NCBI GenBank assembly: GCA_016235345.1
Contig: JACRLG010000036.1
Location: 1 to 64,000, forward strand
From: Deltaproteobacteria bacterium
GTDB lineage: Bacteria; Desulfobacterota; Desulfobacteria; Desulfobacterales; Desulfatibacillaceae
DNA length: 64,000 nt
Direction: 5' to 3'
Position numbers and translations under genes: made by a program. Below, in pieces: positions 33,082 to 37,551 of this stretch. Below the pieces are notes generated by a model. The model searched no databases. It was not told the origin of the DNA and saw only the letters and a program-made list of their open reading frames with translations. Position 1 is the stretch's first letter. Each line of letters opens with the position of its first letter.

Positions 33082-34419
33082 TTAGAAGGACATCTTGATT
33101 TCGTTGAACAGGGAGTAGTTGTTCTCGAGCTTCATCTTGGAATCGCCGAACTGCCAGAAATCGCCGGAAGCGAGATAAGCTGCGATGAACATATAGTTCA
33201 GGTTGGGGTTTATTGCGTAGTTTACCGTGAAATCATACTCGGAGCCGTAATCCTTGCTCCAGGTGCTGTCAACAGGAGCTTCGGCCTTGGCGTTGCCGTA
33301 CACGAAGTTCAAGGCAAGATTGTCAAAAGGCTTGTAGCCGACGCCCGCGTAGAAAATCTTCGCTCCATTGTGGCCAACTACACAGGGCGCGCCATTTGCT
33401 CCCTTGATTTTGCGTTCAGTGCAGTTGAGGTTACCGACGCCGGCCAGGCCACCAGCAATACCGTCGTTTTCGGTGGAGGTCAGAATCCACAGCTTGTCCC
33501 AATCTCCGCCAAGGGTGGCCAGGGATTTCACCTTGGTGTCATTGGCGTTGGAGCCCTGGCCCTGCATCCATGCGTAGCCGAGCTGGAAGCTCAAGGGGCC
33601 GTAAACATAGCCGCCTTCCAGGTTGTAGGCCCAGGCATCCCAATCAACATCATTCAGACCGGCGTTCTGTGCCGCATACTGCTTGCGGTCATATTCCATG
33701 GCGTTTCCGGTGCGGAATACAGCTTCACCCGTAAAGGTGAAGGCGTTCCATTTGCCGGTCACATAGGGGTTGATATCCCAGAAAGAGGAATCATAAGGGT
33801 TGGGGTCCAGGGTGGCGTCGGACGCCGTCTTGGAGTTGGTGTAGCTCAAGAGCAGTCCGCCGTTTAACGCTTCGGTGTTGTAAATGCCGCCAAGGTAGTA
33901 AATGGCGGCATCGGAATCGCTGTAGTCGGGAACGGGGAAGGTAGTGCTGTCAACCTCGCCGACCTTTTCGAAAATCGCCAAGAAGGTGAAATCCTTATAG
34001 CTTTTGCTGTATTTAATGCAGTCGGCGTCAATTTCACCGTCCTGAAAAAGGGTGCCGAACATGCGGCCCCCCATGCGCCCAGCCTCGAAGGTGCCGTAGC
34101 CGGTCTTCACCACCATGTAGGCGCGCTCGAAATCGATGTCGCCGGAGTTGTCCTCGCCTGCGGACCAGCGCTTGTTGTCGAGGGCGTCGAAACGGGTGAC
34201 AAGCTGCATGTTCTCGTTGACCACGAAGGTGGTCTGGAGCCTCAAGCGCATGTCCATCCAAGCGTGGGAGTTTGCCTGCGCGTCGTCCAGAAGGCGCGAG
34301 GAATCATAGAAACCCCGTATACGGTAAGCGCCCTGGAACTCCGCCGTAACGGCGAAGGCCGGAGCTGCCATTGCGACCACCAGGGCCGCCGCCACTGCCA
34401 AAAAAATCAACTTCTTCAT
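33082..34419 (-). CDS. Outer-membrane porin, paralogue 1
   Basis: A 445-residue secreted beta-barrel protein. The signal peptide MKKLIFLAVAAALVVAMAAP ends at AFA. The mature part has many short alternating strands, few Cys, and ends NEIKMSF with the C-terminal Phe needed for outer-membrane assembly. It is closely similar to the gene at 34967-36277, with nearly identical signal peptide, N-terminal 100 residues and last 90. A middle segment holds an extra loop with two Cys (around residues 350-365) missing in the partner. The ATG at 34419 has GAGGAG upstream; an in-frame extension to 34575 overlaps the leader. The solute is unknown. Confidence 0.88.
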   Translation of the reverse strand: MKKLIFLAVAAALVVAMAAPAFAVTAEFQGAYRIRGFYDSSRLLDDAQANSHAWMDMRLRLQTTFVVNENMQLVTRFDALDNKRWSAGEDNSGDIDFERAYMVVKTGYGTFEAGRMGGRMFGTLFQDGEIDADCIKYSKSYKDFTFLAIFEKVGEVDSTTFPVPDYSDSDAAIYYLGGIYNTEALNGGLLLSYTNSKTASDATLDPNPYDSSFWDINPYVTGKWNAFTFTGEAVFRTGNAMEYDRKQYAAQNAGLNDVDWDAWAYNLEGGYVYGPLSFQLGYAWMQGQGSNANDTKVKSLATLGGDWDKLWILTSTENDGIAGGLAGVGNLNCTERKIKGANGAPCVVGHNGAKIFYAGVGYKPFDNLALNFVYGNAKAEAPVDSTWSKDYGSEYDFTVNYAINPNLNYMFIAAYLASGDFWQFGDSKMKLENNYSLFNEIKMSF

Positions 34420-34460
34420 CTGCTGGTTCTCCTCGTTCCTGTTGACTTCATGTCTCCCCA

Positions 34461-34508
34461 AGCTGCCAGCCTCAAGGAAACCTCCATGGCGCTCCTCCTC
34501 AAGAGCGC
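34461..34508 (-). promoter_or_regulatory. Structured leader of porin 1, with TTGAGGAG loop hairpin
   Basis: On the minus strand GCGCTC pairs with GAGCGC (34489-34508) around the eight-base loop TTGAGGAG. A second, weaker hairpin with loop TTGAGGCT follows at 34461-34483. The design matches the porin 2 leader, where both stems are perfect. Confidence 0.6.
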
Positions 34509-34658
34509 TTCCAATCCGGGGCTTCACCCCCAGGCACCCCATGCCGCAGACAAGGCCAATGAGAAGCAAGCTCACACCTTAACCCTGACCACTGCGGCCC
34601 CAACGCGCCAGTCGGCGCTTTCCCCGATAATTTCGAACCACAATCTGCGATATTATTT

Positions 34659-34966: not shown

Positions 34967-36277
34967 CTAGAAGGACATCTCGATTTCGTTGAACAGGGAG
35001 TAGTTGTTCTCAAGCTTCATCTTGGAATCGCCGAACTGCCAGAAATCGCCGGAATCCAGGTAAGCAGCGATGAAGGTGTACTGGAGGTTGGGGTTGATGG
35101 AGTAGACCAGGTTGAAGTCATACTCGGAACCGTAATCCTTGCTCCAGGTGCTGTCAACGGGAGCTTCGGCCTTGGCGTTGCCGTACACGAAGTTGAGTGC
35201 AAGATTGTCAAAGGGCTTGTAGCCGACGCCCACGTAGAAAATCTTTGCGCCGTTTGCGCCTACGCCCGCGTTGATGTTGCCCGCGCCGCCCAGGCCGGTG
35301 GCCAGGTCGCCGTTATTTTTGGTGGCGCCAGCGGTGAGAATCCACAGCTTGTCCCAATCAGTGCCCAGGGTGCCAAGAGTCTTCACCTTGGTGTCGTTGG
35401 CGTTAGAGCCCTGGCCCTGCATCCATGCGTAACCAAGCTGGAAGCTCATGGGGCCGTATGCATAGGTGCCTTCCAGGTTGTAGGACCACGCATCCCAATC
35501 AATGTCTTTGAGGCCGGCATTGAGGGCTGCATACTGCTTGCGGTCATATTCCATGGCGTTTCCGGTGCGGAACATGGCTTCGCCCTGCACGGAGAAGGCG
35601 TCGAACTTGTAGGTGAAATAAGGATCGATGGTCCAGAAGTTGGAATCATAGGGCGTGCTGCCAACGCCTACATAGTCGGAAGCAGCCTTGGAGTTGGTGT
35701 AGCCGACCAGAAGACCTGCAGTGAGGGGCTCGGTCTTGTAAACGCCGAACAGGTAGTAGGTGGCTGCGTCGGTATCGCTGTAATCGGGGAACGGGAAGGT
35801 GAGGCTGTCAGCTTCCGCGATCTTCTCGAAAACCGCGCCAAGGATGAAATCGCTGTACTTCATGGTGTACTTGATGCGGTCAGCATCGATTTCGGAATCC
35901 TGGAAGGAGGTTCCGAACATGCGGGCCTGCATGCGTCCGGCTTCGAAAAGGCCGTACTGGGTCTTGATCTTCATGTAGGCGCGCTCGAAATCGATGTCGC
36001 CGGAGTTGTCTTCGCCTGCGGACCAACGCTTGTTGTCAAGGGCGTCGAAGCGGGTGACAATCTGCATGTTCTCGTTGATCACGAAGGTGGTCATGAGCCT
36101 AAGCCGCATGTTCATCCAAGCGTGGGAATTTGCCTGTGCATCATCCAGCAGGCGTGAGGAATCATAGAAACCGCGAATCCGATAGGCGCCCTTGAACTCC
36201 GTCGTAACGGCGAAGGCAGGGGCAGCTATCGCGACCACCAGGGCCGCAACCACTGCCAACAACATAAGTTTCTTCAT
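34967..36277 (-). CDS. Outer-membrane porin, paralogue 2
   Basis: A 436-residue porin, closely similar to the gene at 33082-34419. The signal peptide MKKLMLLAVVAALVVAIAAP ends AFA; the barrel has repeated aromatic-rich strands and ends NEIEMSF with terminal Phe. TAGGAGG precedes the ATG with nine-base spacing. It has its own promoter and terminator, so it is transcribed separately. The two genes differ mostly in the middle, which probably forms surface loops. Substrate not known. Confidence 0.88.
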   Translation of the reverse strand: MKKLMLLAVVAALVVAIAAPAFAVTTEFKGAYRIRGFYDSSRLLDDAQANSHAWMNMRLRLMTTFVINENMQIVTRFDALDNKRWSAGEDNSGDIDFERAYMKIKTQYGLFEAGRMQARMFGTSFQDSEIDADRIKYTMKYSDFILGAVFEKIAEADSLTFPFPDYSDTDAATYYLFGVYKTEPLTAGLLVGYTNSKAASDYVGVGSTPYDSNFWTIDPYFTYKFDAFSVQGEAMFRTGNAMEYDRKQYAALNAGLKDIDWDAWSYNLEGTYAYGPMSFQLGYAWMQGQGSNANDTKVKTLGTLGTDWDKLWILTAGATKNNGDLATGLGGAGNINAGVGANGAKIFYVGVGYKPFDNLALNFVYGNAKAEAPVDSTWSKDYGSEYDFNLVYSINPNLQYTFIAAYLDSGDFWQFGDSKMKLENNYSLFNEIEMSF

Positions 36278-36316
36278 CTGTAAATCCTCCTAGTTCTTGT
36301 TGTCCTCTTGTCTCCC

Positions 36317-36372
36317 GGAAGTTTCCCTCCTCAAGGAAACTTCCAAAAGCGCCCCTCCTCAAGGGCGCTTTT
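36317..36372 (-). promoter_or_regulatory. Tandem hairpin leader of porin 2 with identical TTGAGGAG loops
   Basis: Two perfect ten-pair stems stand side by side. On the minus strand the first (36372-36345) pairs AAAAGCGCCC with GGGCGCTTTT and the second (36344-36317) pairs GGAAGTTTCC with GGAAACTTCC. Both loops are TTGAGGAG. The AGGA in each loop looks like the GGA-in-loop sites bound by CsrA/RsmA proteins; that binding is inference. The block lies about 40 bases upstream of the start codon. Confidence 0.75.
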
Positions 36373-36465
36373 GCTCGGGGCGCATGCCCCAAACACCTTT
36401 TCGGCGTTATTTTCAGGGGCAGACCTCACCCCAAAAAAATAGACCGCCATAATCCTATTAGTACT

Positions 36466-36543: not shown

Positions 36544-37551
36544 TCAACTTTCACCCCCGCCCTCAAAGGCCCTCATGGCCTCATTTTTGAGTTTTCCCGG
36601 ATCATCCGAGTACCTCGGCGAAAAATGGAACACGTCAAGACGCTTGACACCGGCCTTTCTCGCAATGCGCCCTGCCTGGCCAGCAGTCAGGTGAAATTTT
36701 TCAGCAGCGCTTTCTGAATCTTCATCAAGAAAGGCCGCCTCGACAAAAAGGTGGTCAACTCCTTTGACCAGGGAAAGAATTTTTTTTTCGTTTTCCTCGT
36801 GCCCGACGACATCGGTTATGTAGCCCAGGGACTGGCCCGGACTTTTTCGGACAATATTTTCGGTGAGAAAACCCAGGGGCAGTACCTTCTCCCCGCCCCC
36901 TGCTGACGTGGCCGCAACAGGAGTTTCCGGGTCGGCTTCGGAAAAAAGGGCCTCCTTGAACCCGGAAAGCCAGGGGCCCGGCGCGAGGCCGAGCCTGTCA
37001 AGCCCCGTGCTCAGAATGTTTACGTGAAAGCGCTCCCGAAGCGCGAAACCGAGGCAGGGGGTGCCGTGATCCAGCACGGCTGCTCTGACCGTAAGGGACG
37101 GCTCCGAGACAAGCACGCCGTCAAAGGGCCGGATGACCGCCGGACCCGGCGCGAAGGCGTCCGCAAGGCGAAATGTGCGGGTTTTGATAGAATCTTCAGT
37201 GACTTCGGAGGCCGTGATGGAAAAGGAGTTGGTGAAGCGGTGCGCGAGGTTCCAGAGATAGCCTGAGAGCTTGCCCTCCACGTTTTTCAGGAAACCGGCG
37301 GGGCCGAACACGCAAAGGTCCTTTTCCCGGCCAAGGCCCAGCAAAAGCAGCCGGTCGAAGCCCATGAAATGGTCCATGTGGGCGTGGGACACGAAAACGT
37401 GGCTGATTTTGAGGACATCCCGTGGGGAAAGCGGGCCGGTGTCGCCTGCGTCGAACAACAGGGCCCGGTGTTCCAGGGCAAAGGGCGCGAAAAGGGCGGG
37501 ATCGCCGAAGGGGCTTTCGGAAACCAGCCTCGGTGCAAAGGAAGGTCGCAT
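36544..37551 (-). CDS. Ribonuclease Z-like metallo-beta-lactamase fold hydrolase
   Basis: The 335-residue protein has the di-zinc motif FVSHAHMDHFMGFDRLL (SHAHMDH at 55-61), the pattern of ELAC/RNase Z proteins. FGPAGFLKNVEGKLSGYLWN follows, similar to the region that contacts tRNA in RNase Z. Later conserved points are GYITDVVGHEENE and FVEAAFLDED, and the C-terminal HLTAGQAGRIARKAG, which matches the HxTxxxA motif. This is consistent with a tRNA 3' processing enzyme or a close relative with another substrate. It stands 63 bases from the upstream small gene. Confidence 0.82.
   Translation of the reverse strand: MRPSFAPRLVSESPFGDPALFAPFALEHRALLFDAGDTGPLSPRDVLKISHVFVSHAHMDHFMGFDRLLLLGLGREKDLCVFGPAGFLKNVEGKLSGYLWNLAHRFTNSFSITASEVTEDSIKTRTFRLADAFAPGPAVIRPFDGVLVSEPSLTVRAAVLDHGTPCLGFALRERFHVNILSTGLDRLGLAPGPWLSGFKEALFSEADPETPVAATSAGGGEKVLPLGFLTENIVRKSPGQSLGYITDVVGHEENEKKILSLVKGVDHLFVEAAFLDEDSESAAEKFHLTAGQAGRIARKAGVKRLDVFHFSPRYSDDPGKLKNEAMRAFEGGGES

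Follow-up and report, generated by a model that had tools for sequence, protein, structure and literature searches.

A conserved hairpin with a nearly invariant UU-GAGG-AG tip in porin and OmpW-family leaders of the Desulfatibacillaceae, a putative operator read in trans

Background

Post-transcriptional control of outer-membrane proteins is known, as far as we are aware, mainly from enterobacteria and their kin. Stem-loops at the 5' end can protect outer-membrane-protein mRNAs, that of ompA for example; one CsrA site typically overlaps the Shine-Dalgarno sequence (SD) of its target; and the guanidine-II (mini-ykkC) riboswitch consists of two hairpins with like loops, ACGR. In an account of guanidine-II, a loop-loop contact joins the P1 and P2 hairpins. 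The locus described here shares with guanidine-II the two hairpins with like loops, but its tip, UUGAGGAG, pairs poorly with itself, the loops of guanidine-II are ACGR, and no Rfam match was obtained here.

Three other systems invite comparison. In Staphylococcus aureus, RNAIII is described as making two loop-loop contacts with the 5' UTR and ribosome-binding site of rot mRNA via C-rich loops (PMC2837412). The G-rich mRNA hairpin loops, the two contacts and the C-rich partner of that system have a likeness here in two purine-rich tips, which are candidate contacts; however, no partner RNA was found among the octamer sites inspected, the phylum is another, the genes concerned encode porins and OmpW-family proteins, and in porin 2 neither hairpin covers the start region. 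The best CsrA/RsmA site is presented as an ANGGAX hexaloop set directly on a stem (PMC4005645). CsrA/RsmA sites, including the CsrA-type loops proposed for TwoAYGGAY (RF01731), come as paired hairpins with GGA in the tip (PMC4333381; PMC4005645), as is the case here, but the present loop is neither AYGGAY nor ANGGAX, csrA was not found in the lineage of the locus, and the window (the whole 64-kb stretch of DNA that was analysed) has no Rfam match. Lastly, the STAB-SD of cry3A is reported to bind the 30S subunit and to block RNase J1 (PMC4113751), while standby on tisB is reported to depend on a pseudoknot at the 5' end together with a single-stranded stretch 100 nt upstream (PMC7708055). An SD-like sequence or 30S docking site far upstream of the start is common to these and to the present leaders; here, in contrast, the SD-like sequence lies in hairpin tips with extra fixed bases, and 30S docking is putative.

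Among the literature matches listed, no title concerned leader RNAs of Desulfatibacillum or of Desulfobacterales porins. The leader hairpins described below offer a test case for what uses GGA- or SD-like hairpin tips: the ribosome itself, a small RNA or some new protein.

Results and discussion

Hairpins in the two porin leaders

The porin 2 gene (Porin_4, PF13609) occupies 34967..36277 on the minus strand of the window, with its start codon at 36277; the gene upstream on the same strand encodes a metallo-beta-lactamase-fold protein and ends at 36544. The original prediction, of twin adjacent ten-pair stems displaying the same eight-base loop in this leader, was confirmed at 36317-36372 (minus strand), where two abutting hairpins each comprise a perfect 10-pair stem with a TTGAGGAG cap. 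Hairpin 1 (36345..36372, minus; tip 36355-36362) has the form AAAAGCGCCC-TTGAGGAG-GGGCGCTTTT and hairpin 2 (36317..36344, minus; tip 36327-36334) the form GGAAGTTTCC-TTGAGGAG-GGAAACTTCC; these scored 34.5 and 33.2 bits respectively with model R2, each being itself a model row. The 3' end of the nearer hairpin is separated from the porin 2 ATG by 39 nt. Immediately 5' of hairpin 1 is a GGGGCATGCGCCCC hairpin (36377..36390, minus), in the same place as GGGYTGACNNCCC in some other porin leaders of the order.

The minimum free energy of 36290-36400 was -42.8 kcal/mol, against -25.5 +/- 2.9 for 200 dinucleotide shuffles (z = -6.0; 0/200 as low), this test being done on the plus-strand fold. When the transcribed (minus) strand was folded with RNAfold, UU paired with AG within each supposed octaloop (p ~0.93), giving a longer stem and a GAGG tetraloop closed by U-A and U.G. 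This corrects one point of the original description: the eight bases of the cap are predicted not to form an open loop, a GAGG tetraloop being the likely form of the tip. SD-like sequence is present in this leader besides that at the start site, AGGAGG being found at -82, -54 and -14, and in both hairpins the tip plus the following G contains it. The start region has no strong local hairpin, though the whole-leader fold pairs part of the SD with the 5' end.

The porin 1 gene (33082..34419, minus; start codon 34419) is a paralog encoding a protein 79% identical to porin 2. Hairpin 1 of its leader (34487..34510, minus; tip 34495-34502) has a GCGCTC-TTGAGGAG-GAGCGC core, scored 29.6 bits with R2 and corresponds to 34489-34508 in the 20-nt form used for the genome-wide stem count below. 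A degenerate hairpin 2 (34460..34483, minus), AGGTTTCC-TTGAGGCT-GGCAGCTT, contains two G.U pairs and one mismatch on the sense strand and scored 23.3 bits; both are again model rows.

Searches with Rfam 15 produced no match at the curated score within the 64-kb window (TwoAYGGAY, RF01731, and guanidine-II included), nor at 12 of 18 named porin loci. With relaxed thresholds, every match in 2.3 kb of the window and in 20 leader stretches fell short of its curated score; one of these, suhB/mmgR (RF00519) on the plus strand, was rejected at 18.1 bits against a curated 41.

Distribution within the family

Porin homologs were identified in 18 of 30 genomes (that of the window included); a six-sequence alignment, applied to 242 genomes of the order, identified them in 55. 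Eighteen named porin loci came from the genome collection and 64 porin leaders were compared in all; matches reaching the N-terminus were kept, C-terminal fragments were dropped, and start codons were assigned by a simple rule, and at least one (L055) is doubtful. The family set comprised nine genomes (G000-G008), among them the window genome (G000, 97% complete), a congener (G001), Desulfatibacillum alkenivorans DSM 16219 (G005), which NCBI places in Desulfatibacillaceae, order Desulfobacterales, and a Desulfatibacillum MAG (G008).

Conservation of the loop in related species had been named as a check, and the octamer hairpin was indeed found in 8 of 12 family porin leaders, representing five genomes and three genera: both leaders of G000, those of G001 and G007, two of three in G005 and both in G008. 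The other four leaders (those of G003, G006 and G004, and L061) were without it. In one leader (L036) the copy is UU-GAGG-AA, which keeps UUGAGG and loses AGGAG, as does porin 1 hairpin 2 (TTGAGGCT). In two Desulfatibacillum leaders (L051 and L035), GTTTTC-TTGAGGAG-GAAARC stands just before the ATG and encloses the porin's own SD; whether the best fold contains these hairpins varies with the stretch chosen for folding (three of four stretches for each). The 52 loci that hold the leaders from outside the family gave no R2 match below E = 0.35.

A scan of viral contigs for two TTGAGGAG copies 12-42 bases apart returned at least 120 stretches, which were judged to be chance because the pattern is short. 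The pattern TTGAGGAG followed by TTGAGG matched in 44 of 59 genomes, but a backward control also matched in many (matches being judged by eye only). Arrays like TTGAGGAGCGCTTCGC, with the same octamer between short hairpins, were seen in other genomes of the order (G018:C1:4254894-4256319; G049:C122 and C123; G057:C1); they have the appearance of tandem repeats carrying different hairpins and were left out of consideration.

An OmpW-family leader with the same hairpin

TTGAGGAG occurs at 10 sites in the window against 2.24 expected. Three of these have a stem of at least six pairs (two in porin 2, one in porin 1), while the other seven have 0 or 1 pair. The scan of the whole genome was confined to those TTGAGGAG sites at which the sixth flanking positions combine a purine with a pyrimidine, of which there were 63 (37 + 26). 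A full 6-pair stem, G.U allowed, was present at four, five pairs at one, and four or fewer at 58. All four full-stem sites lie in leaders of outer-membrane proteins, namely the two of porin 2, that of porin 1, and one before an OmpW-family gene; the same loop thus recurs in other leaders of the genome, another of the checks proposed at the outset. In the OmpW-family case (L305, contig C2) the gene starts ~60 nt beyond the tip and encodes 205 aa, with matches to OMP_b-brl and OmpW. The congener's ortholog (L291), an assignment made from a similar N-terminus and the same Pfam families rather than from a tree, also has a hairpin ~60 nt before the start, with the same tip and a different stem.

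R2 was built without OmpW-family rows. Its best non-porin match in the window genome was nonetheless the OmpW-family leader (25.3 bits, the next being 21.1), and in the congener the orthologous leader scored 20.9 bits, tied with one other match (L299). Across the nine family genomes there were 15 matches at E <= 0.01, consisting of 10 model rows, one OmpW-family leader and four matches covered by open frames (G002 has three of these, scoring up to 29.3 bits, and G005 one). Because of these last four, the E-values of R2 must be regarded as over-optimistic; the evidence for the OmpW-family leader is accordingly the stem count (4/63) and the ortholog. Among 20 weaker matches, 18 were under an open frame of at least 290 codons on one of the strands; the others were an ordinary ribosome-binding site (L316, E = 6.2) and a site covered by 103-119-codon frames only (L318, E = 9.6). 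As a separate observation, the 20-mer CGGCCCTTGAGGAGGCCGGG occurs twice in G000 (C7:37380-37399 and C23:3033-3052).

Covariation, strand and shuffle statistics

Covariation was assessed in an alignment of 12 hairpins (10 porin, 2 OmpW-family), in which 88% of cells pair. Both sides had changed in 34 cells, compared with a shuffle mean of 11.6 (0/500 shuffles as high); since the rows are related to each other and were partly picked for folding, the counts are inflated and this figure is not a probability. Two-sided change affected 8 of 10 pairs, these being the eight outer ones, a count reached by 62 of 500 shuffles. The two innermost pairs (U.G and U-A) were fixed in 11 of the 12 hairpins. When the partner was slid by 1-3 columns the covariation score fell from 0.75 to 0.30 or less, and restricting the analysis to the 10 porin rows did not change the picture. 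Compensated changes distinguish the hairpins of porin 1, porin 2 (the first) and the congener.

The transcribed strand was favoured throughout. The sense hairpin was more stable than the antisense in 12 of 12 cases, and an antisense (plus-strand) small RNA at the hairpin site was rejected on this ground; the outer stems contained 7 G.U, as compared with 2 A.C and 10 mismatches of other kinds. Distal AGGAG/GGAGG sites in the 12 family leaders were compared with flank shuffles for their position in hairpin tips: 12 of 25 sites reached p < 0.05 and 6 of 25 p < 0.01. Outside the family, with a wider motif, the same test gave 3/48 at p < 0.05, and at ribosome-binding sites 0/11 and 0/53. For single hairpins, significant values were obtained for porin 2 of the window genome (p = 0.013 and 0.007), the congener (p = 0.017) and G007 (p = 0.007), while porin 1 hairpin 1 taken alone (p = 0.19), L036 (p = 0.07) and L052 (p = 0.28) did not reach 0.05.

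The UU-GAGG-AG hairpin is, on this comparative evidence, almost certainly a real, selected RNA element. Judged from the alignment, its stem is free to change as long as it pairs, and it holds a nearly invariant tip.

Candidate readers of the tip

Both hairpins probably act in cis, as operators within the 5' leader of a message for an outer-membrane protein, and are read in trans; a trans factor would read the tip and so set the translation or decay of porin and OmpW-family mRNAs together. Whatever the reader, it would have to recognise a purine-rich tip. The distance from the AGGAG of this tip to the start codon ranges from 13 to 195 nt, which makes a single simple mode of action unlikely. We tentatively suggest that the reader could be a small RNA, C-rich and with a seed of CUCCUCAA type, to which the tip would base-pair. 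Such a partner would explain why all eight tip bases are kept and not just the SD core, why the stems are free, why copies may come in twos and why these genes share them; on the other hand, a closed GAGG tetraloop (p ~0.93) may hide part of the seed. A search for the partner covered 51 further TTGAGGAG/CTCCTCAA sites of the window genome (purine/pyrimidine-flank patterns), none of which was a clear small RNA gene; 48 were under an open frame of at least 150 codons on one of the strands and three were not (L340, L345, L375). In L375 (G000:C28:317726-318945), CTCCTCAA is found outside long frames near the centre, on the strand opposite the octamer, where a short ATCGCT/AGCGAT stem surrounds the C-rich stretch and a terminator-like repeat is nearby; this is a weak small RNA lead.

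The identity of a trans-acting reader was first proposed as CsrA/RsmA binding the GGA of the loops, or more generally as a dimeric RNA-binding protein or a loop-binding small RNA. The fixed tip and covarying stems suit a reader of the general kind, but CsrA itself is highly improbable. A CsrA-type protein was sought in the 97% complete window genome and none was found; PF02599 had no match in G000, nor in G001-G004, G006 and G007 (seven of nine family genomes), and matched in the two Desulfatibacillum genomes (G005 and G008), in 3 of 14 control genomes (E. coli, B. subtilis and T. maritima) and in 16 of 59 genomes overall. CsrA is unlikely to be the reader because csrA was not found in the window genome or in six of its eight family relatives; stems there differ by compensated changes, and the hairpin must therefore be kept for something else in those genomes. 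For G000 the proposal is contradicted, unless csrA is in the missing 3% or is too diverged for PF02599. Loops of AGGAX form, lacking the N, are described as weaker natural Rsm sites, and CsrA sites as generally paired (PMC4005645; PMC4333381), and the tip does contain AGGAG, this weaker form, together with UUG. However, it is not the high-affinity ANGGAX hexaloop on a stem, and part of its GGA is base-paired in the predicted structure, which engages the final A and G of AGGAG. Nor does the nearer porin 2 hairpin overlap the SD, being 39 nt before the ATG, although such overlap does occur in L051 and L035. A GGA loop alone, then, is not evidence for CsrA. A sequence-specific protein other than CsrA, perhaps bound as a dimer to the twin hairpins and repressing or stabilising the mRNAs, is rather doubtful but a close rival to the small RNA, with several points in its favour: the near-invariant tip, fixed U.G and U-A closing pairs and covarying stems have the look of a protein operator, the hairpin is retained where csrA was not found, and the porin SD itself lies within the same sequence in L051 and L035. 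Such a protein explains, as well as a small RNA does, why the octamer is kept whole, the stems vary freely, the hairpins are doubled and the genes share them. Against it, the hairpins at those two ribosome-binding sites do not surpass flank shuffles (p = 0.34 and 0.46) and enter the best fold only in some stretches; we know of no bacterial protein besides CsrA with specificity for a GAGG tip.

The tips could be accessory SD sequences that dock the 30S subunit far upstream, either as standby for the start codon or as mRNA protection of the STAB-SD kind. This second close rival is unlikely, yet AGGAGG does occur in both porin 2 hairpins; it is found distally in 7 of 12 family porin leaders, against none of 12 on the other strand and a shuffle mean of 1.1, and distal AAGGRGG is present in 35 of the 64 porin leaders of the order (0/64 on the other strand; shuffle mean 3.7). 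An SD, however, requires neither UUG nor a hairpin, the folded tip hides part of AGGAG, two copies (L036 and porin 1 hairpin 2) keep UUGAGG without AGGAG, just 3 of 12 family leaders have AAGGRGG, and no strong hairpin forms locally at the porin 2 start, although the fold of the whole leader does pair part of its SD. For the anti-SD of the species, the assembly offers only a truncated 16S. A purely protective role, in which plain stem-loops at the 5' end delay decay of the mRNA and nothing reads them, would suit the strong stems of porin 2 but leaves unexplained the near-invariant tip across genes and genera, and is quite improbable. Upstream reading frames at the tips are hardly credible as a general explanation and were set aside. 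In the porin 1 leader (34416-34487, minus) a 23-codon frame opens with an ATG 6 nt beyond the AGGAGG of the tip, and the stop of this frame overlaps the porin 1 start as ATGA, and porin 2 has a TTG frame of 18 codons that shares EVSLR with it; yet no start codon occurs 3-11 nt past the octamer tip in the porin leader of the congener, that of G007 or either OmpW-family leader.

To return to an operator read in trans, a fixed operator in porin and OmpW-family leaders of sulfate reducers without detected csrA provides a handle for fishing out the reader. The fuller proposal, to which we give an even chance, is of an undescribed outer-membrane-protein regulon in the Desulfatibacillum family, where a UU-GAGG-AG operator would place porins and an OmpW-family protein under a global regulator (small RNA or protein) with csrA seemingly absent, and, besides it, of a second new element, AAAGGRGGKGAUGC-GUC-GGGYUGACNNCCC, elsewhere in Desulfobacterales.

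A different element in porin leaders elsewhere in the order

Many porin leaders from the rest of Desulfobacterales have another element, of AAAGGRGG type. It takes the form AAAGGRGGKGAUGC...GUC(A)...GGGYUGACNNCCC upstream of the porin start (for example in L212, L215, L237, L255, L207, L209, L218, L205 and L220), and it contains a stretch complementary to the usual 16S tail. Outside the family, distal AAGGRGG was found in 32 of 52 porin leaders (shuffle mean 2.2) and AAGGRGG(T)GAT in 16 of 52 (shuffle mean 0.03), while GG[GC][CT]TGAC was found in 15 of all 64 (shuffle mean 0.6); none of the three occurred on the other strand of the leaders. The GUC or GUCA between the two parts can pair, as judged by eye, with GAC of the GGGYUGACNNCCC loop in a number of leaders, making an H-type pseudoknot possible. 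No Rfam match to the element was obtained in the loci tried.

A model of this element (R1) was applied to 146 genomes. There were 10 matches at E < 0.01, all of them porin leaders and all model rows, and R1 therefore reveals nothing beyond the known leaders. It had no match at the porin leaders of the window, where the GGGGCATGCGCCCC hairpin is in a like place. At E <= 0.1 there were 19 matches, of which 11 were model rows; the other eight (E 0.01-0.1) had no porin-like frame downstream by eye. Four of these eight were under frames of at least 290 codons, one was under a frame of 159 and one was at the start of a 137-codon frame, while L269 and L274 were in no frame above 92 codons. Two weak matches, L269 (G098) and L270 (G114), lie upstream of homologous-looking 315-aa genes that are not porins. 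In the porin leader L205 (G051), a long GTTTAG hexamer repeat is situated between the conserved element and the start codon.
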